The notes under the pieces: generated by a model | Database searches by the model: none | What the model was told of the DNA's origin: nothing | The model's input: only the letters and a program-made list of their open reading frames with translations | DNA from: Prescottella equi | GTDB lineage: Bacteria > Actinomycetota > Actinomycetes > Mycobacteriales > Mycobacteriaceae | Direction: 5' to 3' | DNA: 64,000 nucleotides | Assembly (NCBI RefSeq): GCF_020171745.1 | Contig: NZ_JAIVAH010000016.1 | Span: forward strand, 1-64,000 | Program-made: the position numbers and the translations under genes | Part shown: positions 6,316 through 16,909 of the stretch, one piece after another | Layout: each line of letters starts with the position of its first letter | Position numbering within the stretch: the first letter of the stretch is position 1

Positions 6316-6819
6316 ATGTCCACGCAACTCGACGTTGTCGATCAGGGGGCGTCGCTGACGTTCACCTTTGCCGATCTGATGAAGTACCACGGCCCGAACG
6401 CGCCCGGCGGTGTCGCGCACGCGCTCCAGGTCCTGGGGCGCGCGCTGCCGCTGCTCGACGACGGCCGCCCGGTCGAGCGTCGTGAGGTGGAGATCGCCAC
6501 GGCGCACGGGGGACCGGGCGTACGGGACGCGTTCGAGATGGTGCTGCGTGCAACCACCGGCGACCGTTACGTCGTGGATCCCGCACTGGCACGGCCGGAG
6601 CGGGGAAACACGCTCGCCAACTATGTCTTCCGGCTCACCTACCGGGGTCGCACCGTGACACTTCAGGTGCGTGACGGCTTCGTGGCGGACGAGTTCATCG
6701 AACTGGTGAACAAGAGCGGGCGCACCGATGCCGACGAGGTGCGCTTGGTCGTGCTCAAGCAGGAAATGACCGACCGGTTGCTGGCAGTGCCGGCCACCGA
6801 GGTCTACGACGTCGACTGA
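6316..6819 (+). CDS. conserved protein of unknown function, weakly FmdE-like
   Basis: A 167-residue cytoplasmic protein without signal or membrane segment. The ATG at 6316 has GGGAG 10 bases upstream; the ATG at 6307 has no room for a ribosome site. The N-terminal segment FADLMKYHGPNAPGG, followed by a helix, recalls the HGH-C-PG helix of FmdE-like domains, but the Cys is absent, so this is only a hint. The middle part (VEIATAHGGPGVRDAFE) and the end (LKQEMTDRLLAVPATEVYDV) look conserved and structured. It follows glnE by 64 bp and may be cotranscribed with it. No function is assigned. Confidence 0.75.
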   Translation: MSTQLDVVDQGASLTFTFADLMKYHGPNAPGGVAHALQVLGRALPLLDDGRPVERREVEIATAHGGPGVRDAFEMVLRATTGDRYVVDPALARPERGNTLANYVFRLTYRGRTVTLQVRDGFVADEFIELVNKSGRTDADEVRLVVLKQEMTDRLLAVPATEVYDVD

Positions 6820-6978: not shown

Positions 6979-8289
6979 TCACGCGGCGTGTGGTCCCGCC
7001 CGATTGTGGGCGGGAATGGGCTTCTTGTAGGGATCGACGGTGCTCGGTGGTGTGAACCAAGGGGTTCGATCGGCGCCGATCTTGACTCGCCAGTGTGAGT
7101 GGTGCAGCAACCCGTGGTGGAAGCGGCACAACAGCACGAGGTTGTCGAGGTCGGTGGGTCCGCCGTCTGCCCAATGAATCACGTGGTGGCCTTCGCAGTG
7201 GGCGGGTGGTGCTCCGCAGCCGGGGAAGGCGCAGCCGTGATCGCGGGCGACCAACGCCCGACGCTGCTTCTTGGACACGGTTCTGCTCGTGCGTCCGAGG
7301 TCGATGGGCACGCCGTCGCTCATGACGATCGGCGTCAGGTGGCAGTCGCAGGCCAGTCGTCGCGCGGTCGCGATGGAGATCGGTCCCATGTGTGGCATGC
7401 GTGCGGTGTCTTTGTCGCCGAACAGGTCCTGATCGTCACCCGCATCGTCGCCCGAACCCGTCCACTCGTGGGCGGCTTCGCTGCGGGCAAGGTCGGCGGC
7501 GTTCACATGCAGGGACAGGTGGGGTCGTTCGCCGCCCTCGATCGGCGCGTCGCCGGAGTCGAGGTAGCGGCGCAGGATTTCGGCGAACGCATCGGCCCGC
7601 TGCCGCGCCGGGGTGCGGGAGCCTGCAGGGTCGTCGATCGGGTTTCGTGGCTTGGTCAACGCCGACAGCGCGGTCAGGAGCATCTCTCCGGTGACGGCGT
7701 CGAGATCCCCCTTCACGGCGACGCGCCCGTTGAGTGTCTTGGATGCGTGGAACTCGTTGCGTTCGGTGTCTTCGCTCGGAGGTAGTTCGTCGGATTCGAA
7801 GATCCGCTCGAGCTTGCTGATGCAGGTCTGGACGGTTGCGGTGGTGGCGGTGGGTCCGGTGGCGCTGTCCAGCAACACTTTCCGGCACGAGTCCAGTGCC
7901 TCGTTCGGCATACCGCGGGGCGGGGTTTCGCAGAACTTGCCGATAAGGGCGGCGTGCTCGGCGGAGATAGTGCCGGCGTTGTAGGCGTCGGCGATCTCGG
8001 GTTGCCGGCCGAGCATGCGCCCCAACGTGAGGATTCGTCCCGCGGTCGACACTTCCAGGAGTGTGTTGGCGGCGAGCCATTGTTTGACGCTGCGGAATCC
8101 GAGGGTGTCGAACGAGACTGCGCGCTCGTCGATTTCGGCGATTGTGGCTGCACGTAGTGCTTCGAGTTGTTCGATCGCGTGGCAGATGTCGAGGCCTGTC
8201 TGCAGCAGCAGGATTTCGGTCAGCGTGTGCACGTCTTCGGGTTGTGGCGCGCTGACTGCGACGAGCGAATTGAGTCCCCCCGGATTCAT
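6979..8289 (-). CDS. DUF222 (13E12 repeat family) protein with C-terminal HNH endonuclease domain
   Basis: A 436-residue member of the actinobacterial DUF222-HNH family, called 13E12 repeat proteins in mycobacteria and usually present in several copies per genome. Residues about 20-330 form the helical DUF222 part. The C-terminus holds the nuclease fold: CAFPGCGAPPAHCEGHHVIHW, then a stretch ending NLVLLCRFHHGLLHH, with the Cys pairs and His residues of an HNH site intact, so it is probably active. The biological role is unproven; links to mobile DNA or DNA damage are proposed. A LexA-type box lies 14 bp before the start, and an IS481 relic lies beyond that, marking the spot as accessory DNA. 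Confidence 0.9.
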   Translation of the reverse strand: MNPGGLNSLVAVSAPQPEDVHTLTEILLLQTGLDICHAIEQLEALRAATIAEIDERAVSFDTLGFRSVKQWLAANTLLEVSTAGRILTLGRMLGRQPEIADAYNAGTISAEHAALIGKFCETPPRGMPNEALDSCRKVLLDSATGPTATTATVQTCISKLERIFESDELPPSEDTERNEFHASKTLNGRVAVKGDLDAVTGEMLLTALSALTKPRNPIDDPAGSRTPARQRADAFAEILRRYLDSGDAPIEGGERPHLSLHVNAADLARSEAAHEWTGSGDDAGDDQDLFGDKDTARMPHMGPISIATARRLACDCHLTPIVMSDGVPIDLGRTSRTVSKKQRRALVARDHGCAFPGCGAPPAHCEGHHVIHWADGGPTDLDNLVLLCRFHHGLLHHSHWRVKIGADRTPWFTPPSTVDPYKKPIPAHNRAGPHAA

Positions 8290-8613: not shown

Positions 8614-8669
8614 GAGAACCTCCGAGTGGGGTGTGCCGTGGAGAAGACGCACCCGACTCGGAGGTTCTC
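8614..8669. terminator. hairpin terminator of the iron-box uptake operon
   Basis: GAGAACCTCCGAGT at 8614-8627 pairs perfectly with ACTCGGAGGTTCTC at 8656-8669, and the stem continues inward past one mismatch. It sits 15 bp beyond the stop codon of the last gene of the minus-strand operon, the right place for its terminator. Confidence 0.7.
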
Positions 8670-8683
8670 TTCACTTCAGGCCG

Positions 8684-9394
8684 TCACGCCCGCTTCCGAT
8701 CAGGACACACGCTCTGGTTTCCGGTGTTGTCCAACCAGCGCAGCAGCGCGTAGAGGAAGCGCGTCGATCCCGGCATGAAGTTGTTGCCGTGGTGGTACGT
8801 CGGGTCCAGGGTGGTCGCGATGATCCGGCCCGGCGTAGAGACGGTGTCCTCGAACAGCATCATCCCGGCGTCGCGGAGGTCGCCGTTCTCGTCGGGCTCC
8901 TCCGACACCAGCAGCGGTACGACGTCGGCGTCGGTGTGCAGCAGGCCGTGGTGGTGCCAGATCACCGACTTCGTCGAAAGGTATTCCCACGCCTCGTGTT
9001 CGGGACTGCGGGTGCGGATCAGCGGATCCTCGCCCTCGAGCCACCACCAGAAGTTGGTGGGGCGCGCCGTCCACGTCACTCCGGGCAGCCAGGTGTGCGC
9101 CGCATTCTCACCGAGGACCACGAGCGTCCCGCCGCGTTCGGCGACCGCGAGGATCTGCGCGGTGTGTCGGCGGAGCAACTCGGGATGCAGGCGGTCGGCG
9201 AGGACAACGGTGTCGAACGCGTCGAGGTCGCCGTCGGCGAGGTCCGCGAGGTACAGGAACTCGGGCTGGTGCGCGATCACCGCCGGGTCCTTCAGCGTCT
9301 GCAGATGGAAGTGCGATCCGCCGTGCACCAGTGCGAGTCGACGTCGGGAGCGGGGTGCGCGATCGGTGCGGGCGAAGGGTTCGATGGTGGTCAT
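8684..9394 (-). CDS. ThuA/GATase1-like protein, second of a pair
   Basis: A 236-residue soluble protein with a Rossmann-like class I amidotransferase-type fold, by pattern: a strand RRLALVHGGSHFH near the start, FDTVVLADRLHPELL, and GGTLVVLGENAAHTW in the middle. The later segments HHHGLLHTDAD and DPTYHHGNNFMPGSTRFL resemble the His-rich C-terminal signature of ThuA-like proteins. No catalytic Cys in a GxCxG elbow is seen, so glutaminase activity is unlikely. The ATG at 9394 is preceded by AGGAGG and overlaps the previous stop (ATGA). It ends the ABC-uptake operon. The biochemical role is unknown; work on the imported compound or regulation are guesses. Confidence 0.75.
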   Translation of the reverse strand: MTTIEPFARTDRAPRSRRRLALVHGGSHFHLQTLKDPAVIAHQPEFLYLADLADGDLDAFDTVVLADRLHPELLRRHTAQILAVAERGGTLVVLGENAAHTWLPGVTWTARPTNFWWWLEGEDPLIRTRSPEHEAWEYLSTKSVIWHHHGLLHTDADVVPLLVSEEPDENGDLRDAGMMLFEDTVSTPGRIIATTLDPTYHHGNNFMPGSTRFLYALLRWLDNTGNQSVCPDRKRA

Positions 9395-10026
9395 GCCTGT
9401 GCCTCCTGCTGGGCCAGCCACGTGAGCAGCTGCGGGAAGATACGCGCGGAGGTGTTCGGATCCTCCTGGTAGACGGCGAGATCGATGCCGCCGTGCACCA
9501 GCACCTGACCGGCGCCGAGTGGGTACACGTAGTCGACGGGCAGCGCGTGTCGGCCGATGCAGTTGGTCACGACGGCGCCGTCGGGCAGCTTCTGGCTGTA
9601 GCCGCGGCCGTAGAAGCCGGACACCCCGCGTCGGAAGCTGACGTCGGCGGGATCGACACCCTCCCACACCGGATGCGGGTCACCGGCGGCGATCGCCAGA
9701 TCCTTGGGGCCCGAGTACTGCAGCTTGCGCCACTGGCCGAGGCCGGGCAGGAAGTCGGTGAGCGGGTGACCCATGATCGCGATGCGCCCGCCGGCGGTGA
9801 CGAAGTCGGTGAGCAGATCGCGTCGGCGTTCGAGGAAGATCTGGTCGCAGTTGCCGTTGACCAGCAGGCCGCGGACGCCGTCCAGGTTCAGGGTGTCGAG
9901 GTCGTACAGGTCGACGGGCTGCACGCGCCGGGCGGCGGTGGTGCCGCCGGACATGCCGGTGTTCGTGCCCATCACCAGGTGTAGAACAGGTGGAAGTGAC
10001 TGCGGCGCAGTCGTGTCGAGATTCAT
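9391..10026 (-). CDS. ThuA/GATase1-like protein, first of a pair
   Basis: A 211-residue soluble protein with the same overall pattern as its downstream neighbour but little obvious identity to it. It shows a strand LHLVMGTNTGMSGG near residue 15, LDGVRGLLVNGNCDQIFLE at about 48-66, then a GGRIAIMGHP turn. VSGFYGRGYSQ and YPLGAGQVLVHGGIDLAVY in the second half fit a ThuA-type core. It overlaps both neighbours by 4 nt (ATGA), so it should be translated in fixed ratio with the ATPase and its partner. I know no experimental function for this family arrangement. Confidence 0.72.
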   Translation of the reverse strand: MNLDTTAPQSLPPVLHLVMGTNTGMSGGTTAARRVQPVDLYDLDTLNLDGVRGLLVNGNCDQIFLERRRDLLTDFVTAGGRIAIMGHPLTDFLPGLGQWRKLQYSGPKDLAIAAGDPHPVWEGVDPADVSFRRGVSGFYGRGYSQKLPDGAVVTNCIGRHALPVDYVYPLGAGQVLVHGGIDLAVYQEDPNTSARIFPQLLTWLAQQEAQA

Positions 10027-10808
10027 CGTGAAACCTTCTGAAGGGTGGCCGCGGGTTCGGCGGCCGCGAATGTGTCGTAACGGGTGTAGAGCACGGTGCG
10101 AGGAGCGCCGCGGTCGTCGACGGTGGCGCTCACCACCTCGATGCCGTACAGATCGGTGAGCATGTCGTCGGTGACGAGATCGGCGACGGGGCCGAGCCGG
10201 ATGTCCTCGGGCGAGCGCATCACGATCGCGCGTCCGCCCAGATGTAGCGCGTGATCCGGGTGGTGCGTCGTGAGGAGGATGCCCATGCCGTCCGAGGCGA
10301 GATCGCGCAGCAGCTCGAGCACTCGCGCCTGGTTGCGCAGGTCCAGCGCCGAGACCGGCTCGTCGAGGATCATGAACGCGGCGTCCGACGCCAGCGCTCG
10401 CGCGATGAGCACGAGTTGCCGCTGGCCGCCGGACAGTTCGGCGAAGCTACGGGTGGCCAGGTCGGTGATGCCGACCCGGTCGAGGACCTCGCGGGTGCGG
10501 GAGATGTCGGCCCTGCCGGGCACCGAGAACGCCGAGACCTTCTTCGCCCGGCCCATCAGGACCATGTCGAACACCGAGTACGCGAAGCTCGACAGGCTGG
10601 CCTGCGGGACATAGCCGATCGCGGTGTCCCGCTCCACCCGTCCCTCGCGCAGCGGCGTCAGCCCGGCGATGCACCGCAGCAGCGTCGTCTTGCCCTGGCC
10701 GTTGGGGCCGAGGATCGACGTGATGCCGCCGTCGATGCGCAGGTTCGCGTGCCGGAACACCCAGTCCCGGTGCGGGTAGTGGAAACCGGCGTCCTGAATC
10801 TCAAGCAT
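10023..10808 (-). CDS. ABC transporter ATPase, FepC/FecE type
   Basis: A 261-residue ATPase driving a binding-protein-dependent importer. Walker A is GPNGQGKTT (about 34-42), the signature is LSGGQRQ, and Walker B runs into the catalytic Glu as AAFMILDEP. The H-loop is TTHHPDH, and the D-loop region SALD is intact. The start MLEIQD at 10808 is chosen because the earlier in-frame start would add 18 low-quality residues inside the permease gene. It overlaps the permease by 8 nt and the first ThuA-like gene by 4 nt. Confidence 0.92.
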   Translation of the reverse strand: MLEIQDAGFHYPHRDWVFRHANLRIDGGITSILGPNGQGKTTLLRCIAGLTPLREGRVERDTAIGYVPQASLSSFAYSVFDMVLMGRAKKVSAFSVPGRADISRTREVLDRVGITDLATRSFAELSGGQRQLVLIARALASDAAFMILDEPVSALDLRNQARVLELLRDLASDGMGILLTTHHPDHALHLGGRAIVMRSPEDIRLGPVADLVTDDMLTDLYGIEVVSATVDDRGAPRTVLYTRYDTFAAAEPAATLQKVSR

Positions 10809-11862
10809 CGATGAAGGCCTGTCTACGCGAATTCCGGAGCAGCAGAACGAACACCGGGGCACCGATGATCGCGGTGAGGATGCCGAGCGGGATCTCGCCG
10901 GAACTGACGGTGCGGGAGAGCGTGTCGATGATCGTCAGGTACGCGGCACCGAGCACGAACGTGGTCGGCATCGAGATCCGGTGGTCGGGGCCCACCCACA
11001 GCCGGGCGATGTGCGGAACCACCAGGCCCACCCAGCCGATCACGCCCGACACGGCAACCGCACCGGCGGTCATGAGCGCCACCATCGTCAGCAGCAGCGC
11101 CCGTAGCCGTCCGGGGTTGACCCCGAGCGAGGCGGCGTCGTCGTCGCCGAGCGAGAGGATGTTGATCCGCCAGCGCAGCCCGATGATGACGGCGGAGCCC
11201 GCGAGGATCGGGATCGCCGCGATCAGCACCTTCGCCATGTCGGCGGTGGCGAGGGAACCCATGAGCCAGAACACGATCGACGGGAGTGTCGTGTACGGGT
11301 CGGCGACGTACGTGATGAACGACACCAGTGCCGAGAAGAACGCACTCGTGACGACGCCGCCGAGCACGATCATCAGGAGCGCGCCGCCCGACCGGCTCCG
11401 GCCGATCAACAGCACCATGCCGAGCGCGGCGAGACCGAACAGGAATGCGCCGCCGACCAGGAACGTCGAGCCCAGCCCGAACATCAGTGCCAGCACACCG
11501 CCGAACGACGCACCCGAGGACACGCCCAGGATCTGGGGGCTCACCAGCGGATTGCGGAACGCGGCCTGCAGCGCGGCACCACCGAGGGCAAGGCCACCGC
11601 CGACGAGCATCCCCAGCAAGACCCGTGGAAGCCGCACGCCCAGAACGACGTTGGATTCGGCCTCGGTCCACGTTCGGGGGAGCGAGATCACCTCGTTGAT
11701 CAGGATGCGGGCCACCTCGTTGACCGGGACCGTGTAGCGGCCCACGGACAGCGAGATCAGCCCGACCGCGACGATCCCGACGGTGAGTACGACCGGCACC
11801 AGCAGCCGCGACGACCGCCGCGTCGGCTGCTCGGTCGCGGTCTCAAGCGCGGAAGGCGTCAT
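10801..11862 (-). CDS. FecCD/BtuC-type ABC permease
   Basis: A 353-residue polytopic membrane protein of the iron-siderophore/haem/B12 permease family. After a basic N-terminus come about nine or ten hydrophobic helices, with typical family segments RLPRVLLGMLVGGGLALGG, NPLVSPQILGVSSGASFGG and IGWVGLVVPHIARLWVG (the last carries the ATPase-coupling GxVxxxxR loop). A single permease gene implies a homodimeric channel. The start MTPSAL at 11862 lies inside the end of the binding-protein gene (20-nt overlap). Substrate specificity cannot be read from the permease. Confidence 0.93.
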   Translation of the reverse strand: MTPSALETATEQPTRRSSRLLVPVVLTVGIVAVGLISLSVGRYTVPVNEVARILINEVISLPRTWTEAESNVVLGVRLPRVLLGMLVGGGLALGGAALQAAFRNPLVSPQILGVSSGASFGGVLALMFGLGSTFLVGGAFLFGLAALGMVLLIGRSRSGGALLMIVLGGVVTSAFFSALVSFITYVADPYTTLPSIVFWLMGSLATADMAKVLIAAIPILAGSAVIIGLRWRINILSLGDDDAASLGVNPGRLRALLLTMVALMTAGAVAVSGVIGWVGLVVPHIARLWVGPDHRISMPTTFVLGAAYLTIIDTLSRTVSSGEIPLGILTAIIGAPVFVLLLRNSRRQAFIDA

Positions 11863-13000
11863 AGCCTGCGCTGCCCGAGTTGGCCGACATCTGGAGAATG
11901 CGGTCGACGTCCGCATCGGTGACGTCGTACGCGTACAGCGTGCGGTACGTCTCCCGGATGCGCTGGCGCAGTCCGTGGTTCACGTCCGGGAAGAACACCG
12001 AGTTCACCCACAGCCACATCAGGTTCGACTCGTTGCATGGCGGATCCCACGAGAAGCCGCCGATCGGGGCCTTGTAGACCCGCTTGTTCTTCACCGCGGA
12101 CAGCGACGCCCACTTGGGGTCGGCATAGACGTCGGCGGGGGTCGTCGGCTCGAAGTTGCCGAGGATCAACACCTCCGGGTCCCAGCCGAGCACCTGCTCT
12201 CGGGTGACACCGAGGCTCGAGCCGCTACCCGCGCCGGACGCGACGTTCTTGCCGCCGGCGAGCTTGATCCAGAAGTCCATGTAACTGTTGTCGGCGCCGA
12301 CCTTGATCTCCGGCGCGTTGTACAGGTACATCACCTTCGGGGCGGTCGACGCGTGCGCCGCGGCGGTCTTCTCGACCAGCGCGCGGTCGTCGGCCATCTT
12401 CGCGAGCACCGCGTCGGCCTCGGCCTTCTTGCCCAGCAGTTCACCGAAGATCTGGATCCAGGCCTCGAGATCCTCCTGCGTGCCGTACTTGAGCAGGATC
12501 ACCTTCAGGCCGGCGTTGCGCAGCGGCGCGACGATGTCGTCGCCCTTGTCGCCCCACTGGATCACGACGTCCGGGTTCAGGCTGAGGATGTGCTCGACGT
12601 TCGGCACGAAGTCGTTGCCCGCCACCACCGGGGTGTCGAGGAACTGCGGGAACATCGTGCCCAGCATGCCCTTCGAGGCCATCGAGATCGCGACCTGGTT
12701 GACGCCGACGTTGCGGGCGGTGGACTGGTCCGAACCGATGATCATCGATGGCACCGGGATGATGGCCGACGCGATCCGGCCGACCGGGGTGTCGAACGTG
12801 ACGGTGTTCCGGTACTGGTCGACGATCGTGATGGGTCCACCGGTGGCGGCGTCCGCGGCCGTCTCGGTGACGGTCTCGCGGCTCGAGCACGCGGTGATGC
12901 CGAGAGCGCCGAGGGCGAGCGCTGCGACCCCCATCGAGCGCATGAGGTCTCGGCGCGTGAGCGCGGCGGTGAAATTCGGGGAAGTGGGAGGGGTCGACAT
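11843..13000 (-). CDS. substrate-binding lipoprotein of an iron-complex-type ABC importer
   Basis: A 385-residue class III binding protein (FepB/TroA fold). The N-terminus has a twin-arginine-like TRRDLMRS before a hydrophobic stretch and a lipobox ending in Cys (GITACSS, about residue 39), so it should be a lipid-anchored cell-surface receptor. The family core is visible: PVGRIASAII, a DVVIQWG turn after LSLNP, and WDPEVLILGN late in the protein. It is the first gene of a five-gene operon with every junction overlapping. The iron-responsive box about 93 bp upstream suggests a ferric siderophore or haem ligand, but molybdate or cobalamin relatives exist. Confidence 0.92.
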   Translation of the reverse strand: MSTPPTSPNFTAALTRRDLMRSMGVAALALGALGITACSSRETVTETAADAATGGPITIVDQYRNTVTFDTPVGRIASAIIPVPSMIIGSDQSTARNVGVNQVAISMASKGMLGTMFPQFLDTPVVAGNDFVPNVEHILSLNPDVVIQWGDKGDDIVAPLRNAGLKVILLKYGTQEDLEAWIQIFGELLGKKAEADAVLAKMADDRALVEKTAAAHASTAPKVMYLYNAPEIKVGADNSYMDFWIKLAGGKNVASGAGSGSSLGVTREQVLGWDPEVLILGNFEPTTPADVYADPKWASLSAVKNKRVYKAPIGGFSWDPPCNESNLMWLWVNSVFFPDVNHGLRQRIRETYRTLYAYDVTDADVDRILQMSANSGSAGYDAFRA

Positions 13001-13093
13001 GGGGCTCCGAAGGCAAAAGTTGTTGGCTCGGTGGCCGTTCGGGGAACGGCGGCAACCCTCCGGGATCGGAAGGTTAGGCGAGCATACAATAAC

Positions 13094-13112
13094 TAATGTA
13101 AGCCTTACCTGA
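13094..13112 (-). promoter_or_regulatory. IdeR/DtxR-type iron box
   Basis: The minus strand reads TCAGGTAAGGCTTACATTA. Compared with the IdeR/DtxR consensus TWAGGTWAGSCTWACCTWA, 17 of 19 positions agree. It precedes the binding-protein gene and is followed by A/T-rich TTATTGTATG, a plausible -10 region. Iron-loaded IdeR would repress the operon, so expression is expected under iron limitation. Confidence 0.8.
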
Positions 13113-13186: not shown

Positions 13187-13873
13187 TCAGCCGTTCGCGA
13201 AGAGGTGGATCCGCTGTTCGCGGCTGCGCTCGAGGTGGGTACGCATGTGCTCGCGGGCGGCCCGCTCGTCCCGGGTGCGGATCGCCTCGAGGATGTTGCT
13301 GTGCTCGGCGTTGAGCAGGTCGGGTTCGCCGTAGTTCGACGGCGGCCCGCTGTCGTAGATCCGCAGCTGGGTCGTCAGCCGGACCAGCAGCGTCATGATC
13401 GTCGTGTTGTGGGCGGCCTGCCACAGCGCCTCGTGGAAGCGGAAGTTGTCGGTGCGAACCTCGTTGTCGTCCTTGGCGCCGCAGCACGAGTTGTGCAACC
13501 GGTCGAGGCGGGCCATGTCGAGGTCGGTGTGCCGGATGGCGGCGGCGCCGGCGGCCTCCGATTCGAGCGCTACGCGGGCGGCGTAGATCTCGATGACGTC
13601 CTCCGGGGTGCCGGAGCGGACCCGGAAGCCGCGCGCGGCGCGTTCGAGCAGGCCGTCGTGCGCGAGCCAGTTCAGAGCCTCGCGGATCGGCGTGCGGGAG
13701 GCGCCGTACTTCTCGCTCAGCTGTGTCTCGTGCAGTGCGGCACCCTGCGGGAACTTGCCGGCGAGGATGTCGGCGCGCAGGTGCAGGTACTGCCTGGACG
13801 TCTGATCGGAGCGGCCGGCGGCGTCGGTGGGTATGAGCGCGCCGAGTTCCGTCAGGTCGTCCCCGTGTGTCAT
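13187..13873 (-). CDS. GntR-family regulator, FadR/FCD subgroup
   Basis: A 228-residue transcription factor. The winged helix-turn-helix is at about 24-95 with LSEKYGASRTPIREALNWL as the recognition segment. The C-terminal all-helical FCD domain has the expected Asp and His residues for a metal/ligand pocket (RTDNFRFHEALW, AEHSNILEAI). The start at 13873 (ATG) is preferred, because the alternative GTG at 13951 would run through a 12-bp palindrome that looks like its own operator. It is divergent from the sulfurtransferase gene, so that gene and gntR itself are the likely targets. The effector is unknown. Confidence 0.87.
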   Translation of the reverse strand: MTHGDDLTELGALIPTDAAGRSDQTSRQYLHLRADILAGKFPQGAALHETQLSEKYGASRTPIREALNWLAHDGLLERAARGFRVRSGTPEDVIEIYAARVALESEAAGAAAIRHTDLDMARLDRLHNSCCGAKDDNEVRTDNFRFHEALWQAAHNTTIMTLLVRLTTQLRIYDSGPPSNYGEPDLLNAEHSNILEAIRTRDERAAREHMRTHLERSREQRIHLFANG

Positions 13874-13938
13874 CGGTGCCCCATCTGTCGTTTCTGCCTC
13901 GGACTCGCTGATTATGCCACCGACGCCAGTCGGATACT

Positions 13939-13950
13939 TGCGTATACGCA
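13939..13950. promoter_or_regulatory. perfect palindrome, probable GntR operator
   Basis: TGCGTATACGCA is self-complementary over 12 bp and lies in the gap between the divergent gntR and sulfurtransferase genes. FadR/FCD regulators commonly bind short palindromes centred on GTATAC, which is present here. Autoregulation and control of the divergent gene are inferred. Confidence 0.6.
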
Positions 13951-13986
13951 CGTCGTCATTTAAGTTCGTGGGCGCTGATCGTCGTA

Positions 13987-14895
13987 GTGAGGATGTACAA
14001 GTTGTCGAGCGTTGCGTGGCCCCTGATCCAGGCGGAGGAACTCGCCGCCCTTCTCGGGGAGGAACCGGAGCCCGTTGTGCTGGACGTCACGGTCCTGCTC
14101 GCGCCGGCCCGCTTCGACGGCGACTACCGGCCCGAGTCGGGGGTGTCCGGGTGGCGGGAGGCGCACGTGCCGGGGTCTCGGCACCTCGATCTGTTTGCCG
14201 CGCTCTCGGACACCGGCAGCACCCTGCACTTCTCCCGGCCTCGCGTCGAACGGCTCGTGGAGGATCTCGCCGAGTTGGGCATCGCCCCGGACACCGACGT
14301 CGTCCTGTACGACCAGGGATCGATGACGTGGGCAGCGCGAGTTTGGTGGCTGCTCCGCAGCATCGGATTCGACGCACGCGTCCTCGACGGTGGCCTCGCC
14401 CGATGGCGGACGCTCGATCTTCCGGTCGCGACCGGGGACGACGCACCGGACCGGCCGGCCGCGGCGCCCCTCGCCGTGACGGGATACCGCCCGGCGTGGG
14501 CGGATCGCGACGATGCGATCGCGATCGTCGAGGGGCAGGCGCAAGGCACCCTGGTCTGCGCACTCGCGCCGGCGCAGTTCTCCGGCGCCGAGAAGACCCG
14601 CTACTCGCGCCGCGGCCACATTCCCGGCAGTCGCAACCTGTCGGCGAAGAGCCTGCTCGACGACACCGGCCGACTCCGGTCGGTCGACGAACTCCGTGCC
14701 CTCGCGTCCTCGGCGCTCGCCGGCGCCGACGATCCGGTGGTCCTCTACTGCGGCGGGGGCATCTCGGCGTGCCTCTCGGCGCTCGGTCTGGTGCTCGCCG
14801 GCCGCGACGACATCAGGATCTACGACGGATCCCTCGAGGAGTGGACTGCCGACCCGGCACTACCGCTCGTGACCCTGCCCGGCGGTGAACTGTGA
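13987..14895 (+). CDS. thiosulfate/3-mercaptopyruvate sulfurtransferase (tandem rhodanese)
   Basis: A 302-residue two-domain rhodanese that moves sulfane sulfur from mercaptopyruvate or thiosulfate to a thiophilic acceptor. The N-terminal, non-catalytic domain has VVLYDQGSMTWAARVWWLLR. The C-terminal domain has RRGHIPGSRNL and the active-site loop with Cys255 in YCGGGISAC, closer to the mercaptopyruvate enzymes than to classical rhodanese. The start is GTG at 13987 or ATG at 13993; neither has a strong ribosome site. It is divergent from gntR and 59 bp ahead of thiM. Confidence 0.87.
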   Translation: MRMYKLSSVAWPLIQAEELAALLGEEPEPVVLDVTVLLAPARFDGDYRPESGVSGWREAHVPGSRHLDLFAALSDTGSTLHFSRPRVERLVEDLAELGIAPDTDVVLYDQGSMTWAARVWWLLRSIGFDARVLDGGLARWRTLDLPVATGDDAPDRPAAAPLAVTGYRPAWADRDDAIAIVEGQAQGTLVCALAPAQFSGAEKTRYSRRGHIPGSRNLSAKSLLDDTGRLRSVDELRALASSALAGADDPVVLYCGGGISACLSALGLVLAGRDDIRIYDGSLEEWTADPALPLVTLPGGEL

Positions 14896-14954
14896 CCCGA
14901 TGTCGTAGGTCCTGACGCCGTCCGCCCGAACTCGCTCTTCTCCCAAGGATTTCC

Positions 14955-15803
14955 ATGACCCGCACCGTCACCGGCGACGACCTCGCCGGCGCTCTGGACG
15001 CGCTGCGCACCCAGGTGCCGCTCGTCCACTCGCTCACCAACATCGTGTCCGCGAACTTCCTCACCAACGTGGTGCTCGCGGCCGGGGCCAGCAACGCCCA
15101 CATCGACAACGCCCACGAGGCAGCGGGATTCGCCCGCATCGCCGGCGGTGTGCTGGTCAACCTCGGCACCCCCGACGACGGCACCGCAACGGCGTTCACG
15201 CTCGCGGCCGAGGCCGCCCACGACGCCGGCACCCCGTGGGTGCTCGACCCGGTCGGCGTAGGCGGGCTGCCGTGGCGCAGCGGGCTCGCGGTCGACCTGC
15301 TGAAGCATCGGCCCACCGCGATCCGCGGCAACGCGTCCGAGATCATCGCGCTCGCCGGACTCGGCGGCGACACCCGCGGCGTCGACAGCTCCGACGACCC
15401 CGCGGCGGCGGTGCCCGCGGCCGTCGCCCTGCTCGAGCACGCCGAGGTGGTCTCGGCGTCCGGCCCGGTGGACCACCTGGTGGGCCGAGACGCGCACGGC
15501 GCCGTCGTCGGGGTCCGGATCGGCGGCGGCAGTGACCTGCTGCCACGGGTGACCTCGACCGGGTGCTCGCTCGGTGGCCTGGTCGCGGCCTACCTCGCGG
15601 TGGCGCCGACCCCGCTCGTCGGGCTGGCCGCCGCGCACGCGCACGTCGCGGTCGCGTCGGAGATCGCGGCCGAGAAGTCCTCGGGCCCCGGCTCGTTCGC
15701 GGTCGAGTACCTCGACGCGCTGGCCGCCGTCGACGCGGAGACGCTCGCCGAGCGTGCCCGCATCGAGTCGATCGACCTGGCGATCGTGGGTGGAATCCGA
15801 TGA
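14955..15803 (+). CDS. thiM: hydroxyethylthiazole kinase
   Basis: A 282-residue ribokinase-like enzyme that phosphorylates 4-methyl-5-(2-hydroxyethyl)thiazole in thiamine salvage. Visible features are the substrate-binding start VHSLTNIVSANFLTNVVLA, the segment WVLDPVGVGG, the AIRGNASEI motif and the catalytic Cys loop TSTGCSLGG. The ATG follows AAGGA. No TPP riboswitch fits in the 59-bp leader. The stop overlaps the next gene by 4 nt. It is unusual that thiE and thiD are not nearby; instead it is coupled to a flavin monooxygenase. Confidence 0.9.
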   Translation: MTRTVTGDDLAGALDALRTQVPLVHSLTNIVSANFLTNVVLAAGASNAHIDNAHEAAGFARIAGGVLVNLGTPDDGTATAFTLAAEAAHDAGTPWVLDPVGVGGLPWRSGLAVDLLKHRPTAIRGNASEIIALAGLGGDTRGVDSSDDPAAAVPAAVALLEHAEVVSASGPVDHLVGRDAHGAVVGVRIGGGSDLLPRVTSTGCSLGGLVAAYLAVAPTPLVGLAAAHAHVAVASEIAAEKSSGPGSFAVEYLDALAAVDAETLAERARIESIDLAIVGGIR

Positions 15804-16909
15804 GCATCAAGACTTTCTGGTACCTCACCCAGGCTGACGGCGACTTCCCGTGGAGCCCGGGCGGGCTCTACCCGGTGGACGGGGCGCGGCAGATCGAACT
15901 CGCCAAGACCATCGACGACGGCGGCTTCGACGGCGCCCTCGTCGCCACGTGGTCCAACGATCCGTTCGCCTCCGCGGCCTGGGCGGCGTCGCACACCAGC
16001 CGCATGAAGTTCCTCGTCGCGATCTACGCCAACATGATCCCCGCGCGCCTGCTCGCCGAGAAGGCGCTCACGTTCGACGCCTTCACCGGTGGCCGCCTCA
16101 TGATCAACTCGGTGAACGGACGCGACAACATCCTCACCAAGTACGACATGAACGTCGAACACGACCGCCGCTACGAACTGGGGGAACAGTACTGGGCGGA
16201 CTTCCGGCGGTACTACCGTGAGGGCACCGAGTCGAACTTCCCGAACACGCCGCTGCGTATCGACGGGCCGGCCGACCACGACGTTCCACTGTGGGGTACC
16301 GGCGACTCCCCGGCCGGCCTGGCGAACTCGGGCAAGGTGCTCGATGCGTACCTGGTGATGCTCCGCGAGACGTCGTTCATCGAGGACAAGTTCGCCGGTG
16401 CGCGGGCTGCCGCGGCCGCCGCAGGACGCGAGTTCACCGATTTCGGCGCGCTGTCCGGCGTGATCGTCCGCCCGACCCGGGACGAGGCGATGGACCGGTT
16501 CCGGTCGCTGTTCGAGAAGGCCGGGATCGACCAGATCGCCGACGTCCTCGACAAGGCGGTGCGCCGCCGCACCGGCGGGCAGCAGGACCTGGCGACCTTC
16601 ACCGCCCGCGACGCGCAGCGCCAGGGCTGGGTCGACACCATCGTCGCCGGCAAGATCCCGGAACCGAACGATCTCTACCTCGGTGACGGCCTGTACGCCG
16701 GCATCACCGCGTGGTCGCCGCTCGATATCTTCGCGACGGGGTCGTCCGCCGTCTACTACGTCGGCGCACCCGACGAGATCACCGACCACGTCCGGGTGCT
16801 GAAGCAGCGGACGGGGCTGACGTCGCTGATCCTGGCCGGTTGGCCGCTGATCGACGAGGCGAAGCAGGTGGCCGAGCACCTGATTCCGCGGTTCGCCGAC
16901 CTCGACTGA
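15800..16909 (+). CDS. LLM-class flavin-dependent monooxygenase, SsuD-like
   Basis: A 369-residue luciferase-like TIM-barrel oxidoreductase of the alkanesulfonate monooxygenase group, expected to use reduced FMN and O2 to cleave or hydroxylate a small organosulfur or similar substrate. Characteristic parts are KTFWYLTQADGDFPW at the start, the MKFLVAIYANMIPARLLAEK segment, FTGGRLMINSVNGRD and the R-Y-E-x-G-E-QYW helix. The ATG overlaps the thiM stop (ATGA), so the two are translationally coupled. The true substrate is unknown; degradation or oxidation of a thiazole or sulfonate is an inference from context. Confidence 0.85.
   Translation: MSIKTFWYLTQADGDFPWSPGGLYPVDGARQIELAKTIDDGGFDGALVATWSNDPFASAAWAASHTSRMKFLVAIYANMIPARLLAEKALTFDAFTGGRLMINSVNGRDNILTKYDMNVEHDRRYELGEQYWADFRRYYREGTESNFPNTPLRIDGPADHDVPLWGTGDSPAGLANSGKVLDAYLVMLRETSFIEDKFAGARAAAAAAGREFTDFGALSGVIVRPTRDEAMDRFRSLFEKAGIDQIADVLDKAVRRRTGGQQDLATFTARDAQRQGWVDTIVAGKIPEPNDLYLGDGLYAGITAWSPLDIFATGSSAVYYVGAPDEITDHVRVLKQRTGLTSLILAGWPLIDEAKQVAEHLIPRFADLD

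Follow-up and report, generated by a model that had tools for sequence, protein, structure and literature searches.

The stretch of DNA analysed here, a 64,000-nt window of Prescottella equi contig NZ_JAIVAH010000016.1 (assembly GCF_020171745.1; genome 5.49 Mb), carries a minus-strand operon of five genes in which an ABC importer is followed by two small proteins, T1 and T2, that recur beside importers of several kinds, commonly together with a third protein, FMD. In gene order, the operon encodes a 385-residue substrate-binding lipoprotein of the FecCD-importer type (11843..13000; Pfam Peripla_BP_2, E 5.2e-25), a 353-residue permease (10801..11862; FecCD, E 3.4e-85, scored on the longer frame 10801-11916), a 261-residue ATPase (10023..10808; ABC_tran, E 4.3e-23, frame 10023-10811), T1 (9391..10026, 211 residues) and T2 (8684..9394, 236 residues). 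All five genes start with ATG, stop with TGA and are free of inner stops, and every junction overlaps, by 20, 8, 4 and 4 nt in turn. The original prediction had described these overlaps correctly and had read a fixed stoichiometry into them; what overlap suggests is translational coupling, and the stoichiometry does not follow. With a Peripla_BP_2 binding protein, a FecCD permease and an ABC ATPase in one operon, the importer is of the FecCD type. Among solved structures, the top chain for the lipoprotein is 4ovk, an unspecified periplasmic binding protein, followed by binders of iron complexes, haem, nickel and other ligands, and no NCBIfam equivalog matches the permease above its cut-off.

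About 94 bp ahead of the binding-protein start lies a palindromic IdeR/DtxR-like iron box (13094..13112, minus strand). Scored against TWAGGTWAGSCTWACCTWA, the degenerate consensus of the IdeR/DtxR box, it matches at 17 of 19 positions, as had been predicted, and it is the sole site with three or fewer mismatches in the window, where none is expected (100 shuffles gave 0). Genome-wide (5.49 Mb) there are five sites with at most two mismatches, this one included, and none for a reversed control pattern. Three of the other four adjoin siderophore-type genes: the first lies between a gene for a non-ribosomal peptide synthetase condensation domain and one for a chorismate-binding enzyme, the second sits where a Peripla_BP_2 gene starts and the third is ahead of a gene for a siderophore-interacting protein. 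The fourth precedes a gene of unclear kind. The same genome has two Fe_dep_repr_C (DtxR/IdeR-type) genes, so that a predicted 19-bp box and a regulator of the matching type are both present.

T1 and T2 had been described as ThuA-like, a label that stands on some grounds and fails on others. Against Pfam and NCBIfam models at E up to 1 neither window protein finds a match, save chance-level ones for T2, and a PF06283 (ThuA) profile search of the same genome returns nothing; the curated ThuA cut-off of 33.4 bits is not reached, a haloarchaeal T2 scoring only 15 bits (E 0.031). However, predicted fold and remote sequence similarity place T2 in the ThuA/GATase1-like superfamily among the families listed, the sequence comparison using seven proteins kept from 12 ThuA loci, with frames chosen by mutual similarity and one of the seven only weakly similar to the rest. 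T1, which belongs to no named family, would inherit the label through paralogy with T2, which hhalign puts at 96.2% probability (E 2.6e-9) with broad profiles and at only 37% with shallow ones. Apart from lacking a Pfam match, the window proteins differ from ThuA/GATase1-like proteins in occurring as a T1-T2 pair and in lacking the cysteine nucleophile of class I glutamine amidotransferases (GATase1): in our alignments the strand that presumably leads into the nucleophile elbow is followed by Gly-His in T1 and mostly by Gly-Glu in T2. What T2 conserves is His133, His147, His201, Asp183 and Asp197, together with a cluster of tryptophans. One T2-T1 fusion relative matches DUF4159 at E 1.8e-4, below the cut-off. 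No T2 relatives were found in phages and viral contigs, and a search of PHROGs gave E 0.046 at best. A joint T1 and T2 alignment built on a natural fusion was discarded, as T1 rows fell on the T2 half. Just beyond T2 there is a 20-nt inverted repeat (95%; 8614-8669), and the C-terminal tail of the window T2 differs from those of its relatives at loci L001 and L002.

The third member, FMD, lies outside the region originally singled out, on the plus strand (6316..6819) and convergent to the operon. In the window it is separated from T2 by a DUF222-HNH gene (6979-8289, minus strand), presumably of the 13E12 kind, whereas at L001 and L002 the gap is below 100 bp. FMD is a divergent homologue of FmdE (PF02663): compared with 12 FmdE proteins (those, out of 15 fetched loci, in which a script found an FHG motif), it aligns over most of its length, with an hhalign probability of 95.5% (E 4.9e-9, 147 columns) that indicates homology of the core domain. 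Negative controls gave 0.1% for FMD against ThuA and 0.1-0.2% for T1 and T2 against FmdE, and the FMD profile recovers one FmdE locus (L049, 22 bits). At the curated cut-off of 22.9 bits the family assignment fails: the window FMD has no PF02663 match, and the best of four further relatives scanned, from Methylocystis, scores 19.9 bits (E 7.9e-4). Searches of solved-structure sequences with the family alignments A1-A3, the last being that of FMD, yielded no credible relative; matches of A3 to TAL-effector repeats (E down to 4e-6) were discounted, as they span some 50 residues with no stretch passing alone. FmdE is described as binding metal through His17, Cys19 and Cys55, with the motif FHGHxC (PMC2954224). 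FMD keeps none of the equivalent positions, reads YHGPxx in place of the motif in ten aligned members, and is missing the zinc finger. Four arginines are near-invariant, Arg55 and Arg78 in 41/41 sequences and Arg70 and Arg84 in 40/41.

How regularly do these genes travel together? Across 151 genomes of the family, FMD occurs in 29, T2 in 22 and T1 in 21. Every T1 genome carries T2, the 22nd T2 genome having a fragment only, and FMD is present in 19 of the 21 (on another contig in two, broken in one) versus 10 of the 130 others (nominal Fisher P 6e-15, the genomes being related). In the order, 10 of 298 genomes gave a T2 match, counting a fragment (G254) and an unconfirmed match (G168). We inspected neighbourhoods for 19 of the 21 T1-positive family genomes (all but G683 and G705). 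In total, 30 non-redundant actinobacterial loci were counted (the window, L001-L019, L022, L025-L028, L030, L031 and L034-L036), after removal of duplicates (L023, L024, L029, L032 and L033, of L003, L002, L011, L012 and L004, respectively), a T2 fragment beside an OppD-like gene (L020) and an E 6.9e-4 match that the profile did not confirm (L021). All 30 have an importer no more than a few genes away from T1/T2, although at L025 its matches are partial and FMD is broken. Sixteen importers are of the FecCD type and 14 of the SBP5 NikA/Opp type, L010, which has both, being counted as FecCD. For 24 of the 30 loci the retrieved stretch includes FMD, and at some Opp loci (e.g. L011, L028) it lies in between the importer and a convergent T1-T2.

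One might object that the neighbours are mere hitchhikers on a FecCD siderophore operon of the ordinary kind: FecCD operons are common, and T1 turns up seldom in the phylum, in 3 of the 396 genomes sampled. We consider this highly improbable, as it is contradicted by a linkage that is kept over Actinomycetota, Proteobacteria, Paenibacillus and a haloarchaeon and is accompanied by the gene fusions and importer exchange described below.

We surveyed 746,621 bp of actinobacterial DNA, in 38 non-redundant sequences, for iron-box-like sites with at most three mismatches and find 24, of which 23 fall within 400 bp upstream of a gene for a Peripla_BP_2-type (SBP) or SBP_bac_5-type (SBP5) binding protein or of T1. 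These upstream regions make up 25,779 bp, or 3.5% of the surveyed sequence, and 100 Markov-shuffled sets of them contain no box-like site. Boxes accompany both importer types, at 8 of 16 FecCD loci (in a position similar to that in the window) and 10 of 14 Opp loci. They also precede T1 itself: separate T1-T2 operons at L011, L012 and L036 have a box of their own (L028 needs four mismatches and L013 five), as does the operon that begins with T1 at L019.

That T1 and T2 act together, as originally proposed, is suggested by natural fusions, which occur in both orders and from which we therefore argue for a working pair. T1-T2 fusions are found at L010 (second copy), L014, L015, L026 and L027 and on plasmids L047, L067 and L077; T2-T1 fusions at L046, L070, L071, L072, L077 (second system) and, truncated, L076. 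There is also one T2-FMD fusion (L016). The importer, in turn, has been exchanged. We placed 45 T2 domains on a tree (domains below 100 bits or 150 residues excluded), with several rows on long branches and importer labels set by us from the neighbourhoods. The FecCD and Opp labels require four changes each on this tree, branches with good support forcing three of them, and six changes are required when all four importer labels are considered. In line with this, the T2 proteins of Opp-linked L011-L013 are 72-79% identical to the window T2, compared with 47% for FecCD-linked L016. Some records hold more than one system: on a single Rhodococcus contig (L010), a FecCD operon with T1 and T2 lies alongside an Opp-type operon that includes a fused T1-T2, and the contig further holds two FMD genes plus one additional T1; a Rhizobium plasmid (L077 1-8504) has two nearby FecCD importers, of which one adjoins a T2-T1 fusion and the second is accompanied by FMD and a fused T1-T2.

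Outside actinobacteria the search covered plasmid records, for 20 of which we examined neighbourhoods. T1 and T2 occur together in 14, and 13 of these have an importer; in R. sophoriradicis, where the copy is truncated, there is none beside it. FecCD importers accompany the pair on plasmids of Methylocystis, Methylosinus, rhizobia, Shinella, Aliivibrio and Labrenzia. The Methylocystis and Methylosinus cassettes sit between TonB siderophore receptors; one of the two is also accompanied by HemP, the other by genes for FecR and PepSY-TM. Elsewhere the importer differs: it is NikA-type, beside a HupE/UreJ protein, on a Paracoccaceae plasmid, Opp-type in Paenibacillus (judged from unannotated open reading frames), SsuA-type by annotation in Chelatococcus, where T1 is broken, and Fbp-like by annotation in the haloarchaeon Natribaculum, where no FMD was seen. 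The predicted tie to transporters thus holds (30/30 actinobacterial loci), but, since the pair also accompanies NikA/Opp-, SsuA- and Fbp-like importers, FecCD is not its specific partner.

We favour, with a probability of roughly 0.45, the explanation that T1, T2 and FMD constitute a portable module for processing an iron chelate after its import, made up of a cytosolic T1-T2 heterodimer and an FmdE-like partner. The window operon would then unite an iron-regulated metal-chelate importer with two subunits of this companion module. T1 and T2, paralogous proteins of the ThuA fold, probably form the heterodimer, and FMD is probably dimeric like its FmdE relatives, most metal ligands having been lost and the arginine set kept. 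Because the companion importers (FecCD, NikA/Opp, SsuA and Fbp-like) differ in build, what the module follows is most simply the cargo and not any one of them. Iron boxes and siderophore receptors lead us to favour an iron chelate, and links to carbon-phosphorus (C-P) lyase and SsuA an anionic organic ligand. The incoming chelate would most likely be taken over in the cytosol, where T2 probably binds and then opens or hydrolyses it by way of His133, His147, His201, Asp183, Asp197 and the tryptophan cluster; FMD would hold the anionic ligand, the iron would be released, and the ligand would be reused or degraded.

A number of observations weigh against this model. Conserved predicted boxes speak for the iron-regulated operon originally proposed, but 12 of the 30 actinobacterial loci have none (at up to three mismatches) before the importer or T1. 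The loci are related and their counts therefore do not represent independent events. FMD occurs without T1 in 10 of 29 genomes, and in the six of these whose FMD surroundings were inspected, no T1/T2 and no similar importer was found; likewise, no importer is annotated beside a truncated FMD in Sphingopyxis. The predicted-structure model of T2 is of modest quality (predicted local distance difference test score 58), and GATase1 chemistry is not implied for T2 because the cysteine nucleophile is missing. The importer at 14 of the 30 loci shares SBP_bac_5 with NikA/CntA-type importers, and yet the one Opp-type binding protein tested scores 138.5 bits for Opp4A and 136.7 for NikA, far below both curated cut-offs, falls far short of the CntA cut-off as well, and has as its top relatives among solved structures proteins that bind peptides. 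At SsuA-type loci nothing favours iron. Finally, the occurrence of FMD in FecCD operons with C-P lyase genes points to a phosphonate substrate, a hint repeated on the Labrenzia plasmid, where T1-T2, a FecCD importer, FMD, phnG and phnH stand together.

Such links invite a different account, in which several importers bring in an anionic organic compound, organophosphonate- or sulfonate-like, for the module to metabolise, and the substrate contains no iron; iron control in actinobacteria would reflect, for instance, an iron-dependent later step. FMD lacks T1/T2 in six of the 20 plasmid records. One Klebsiella plasmid (L065 5032-13700, beside a LysR gene) combines FMD with a FecCD-type importer, phnG, phnH, phnJ and two ATP-binding genes, the gene in the place of the binding protein being annotated as hypothetical; Rhizobium WL3 has the same arrangement plus phnI; and a Proteus plasmid (L064 292-5817) corresponds to the right part of the Klebsiella stretch, with an ATPase and FMD before phnGHIJ, where the record ends. 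As the annotation of the Klebsiella and Proteus stretches shows no PhnCDE-type importer, a FecCD-type phosphonate importer is suggested. SsuA-type importers accompany T2 or FMD, as in Azospirillum (FMD, no T1/T2); an SsuD-like monooxygenase, a rhodanese and ThiM adjoin the window operon; and the near-invariant arginines of FMD would suit an anionic compound. Against this stand the iron boxes that precede both importer types and T1, and the siderophore receptors that flank the methanotroph cassettes, so that we regard this account as possible but doubtful. On an E. coli ED1a plasmid (L066 8001-11436), an SsuA-type importer is bracketed by two FMD-like genes, with no T1/T2.

A metal chelate whose ligand is afterwards used would fit the iron evidence and the C-P lyase and SsuA evidence alike. 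Taken to its limit, this idea makes T1, T2 and FMD an undescribed, importer-independent cytosolic machine for chelates with anionic, possibly phosphonate- or sulfonate-type metallophores as ligands, in which the T1-T2 heterodimer would strip the metal without a cysteine nucleophile, the arginine set of FMD would hold the ligand, and C-P lyase (in some hosts) or the SsuD-like monooxygenase (in rhodococci) would then take it, a proposal that we put forward as a long shot.

Alternatively, T1, T2 and FMD might not be enzymes at all: they could act as a metallochaperone or sensor complex, either accepting metal from the importer or gating it. FmdE relatives bind Zn or Ni and most of their genes adjoin metal-ion transporter genes (PMC2954224), the latter point counting equally for chelate processing. 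Service to several importer families and the His- and Asp-rich conserved set of T2 would also be in keeping with such a role. We nevertheless think it unlikely, given that FMD is without equivalents of FmdE His17, Cys19 and Cys55. Moreover, permeases of FecCD importers differ in type from those of the Opp, SsuA and Fbp kinds, which makes it hard to picture direct gating of every importer.

Upstream of the iron box, a GntR/FCD regulator (13187..13951, minus strand) accompanies the operon in Prescottella and Rhodococcus loci and was not seen in three Gordonia loci. Beyond it, genes for the rhodanese, a hydroxyethylthiazole kinase and the SsuD-like luciferase-family monooxygenase (13987..16909, plus strand) are facultative neighbours. 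The island from regulator to monooxygenase (13187-16909) is kept in Prescottella/Rhodococcus loci; at L013 the kinase and monooxygenase adjoin an Opp-type locus, and at L037 the whole island adjoins FMD, with neither T1/T2 nor a similar importer present.

Compared with FecCD-type siderophore and haem importers, with which it shares its first three genes (Peripla_BP_2, FecCD, ABC_tran) and an iron box in front, the window operon adds T1, T2 and the linked FMD. A close relative has a putative siderophore ABC importer, described as the operon iupA, iupB, iupC of Rhodococcus equi (REQ24080-100; PMC2947987, PMC6948317). Going by the title of a cited paper, iupABC is reportedly iron-regulated. In the open-licence literature we found no title or abstract describing a T1/T2/FMD module, nor any description of ThuA-like proteins as part of FecCD importers, in keeping with the original statement that they are not a known component.

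The module joins three unnamed protein families and ties them to a function rather than to a transporter, in bacteria and, for T1/T2, in an archaeon. It marks a set of FecCD-, NikA- and SsuA-type importers as likely sharing one substrate class. If T1, T2 and FMD do process metal chelates, they would represent a new cytosolic route of release or degradation beside siderophore-interacting reductases and esterases, and would give FmdE-like proteins near metal transporters a testable role. Should the cargo be a phosphonate- or sulfonate-type metallophore, a single uptake route would supply iron plus phosphorus or sulfur.

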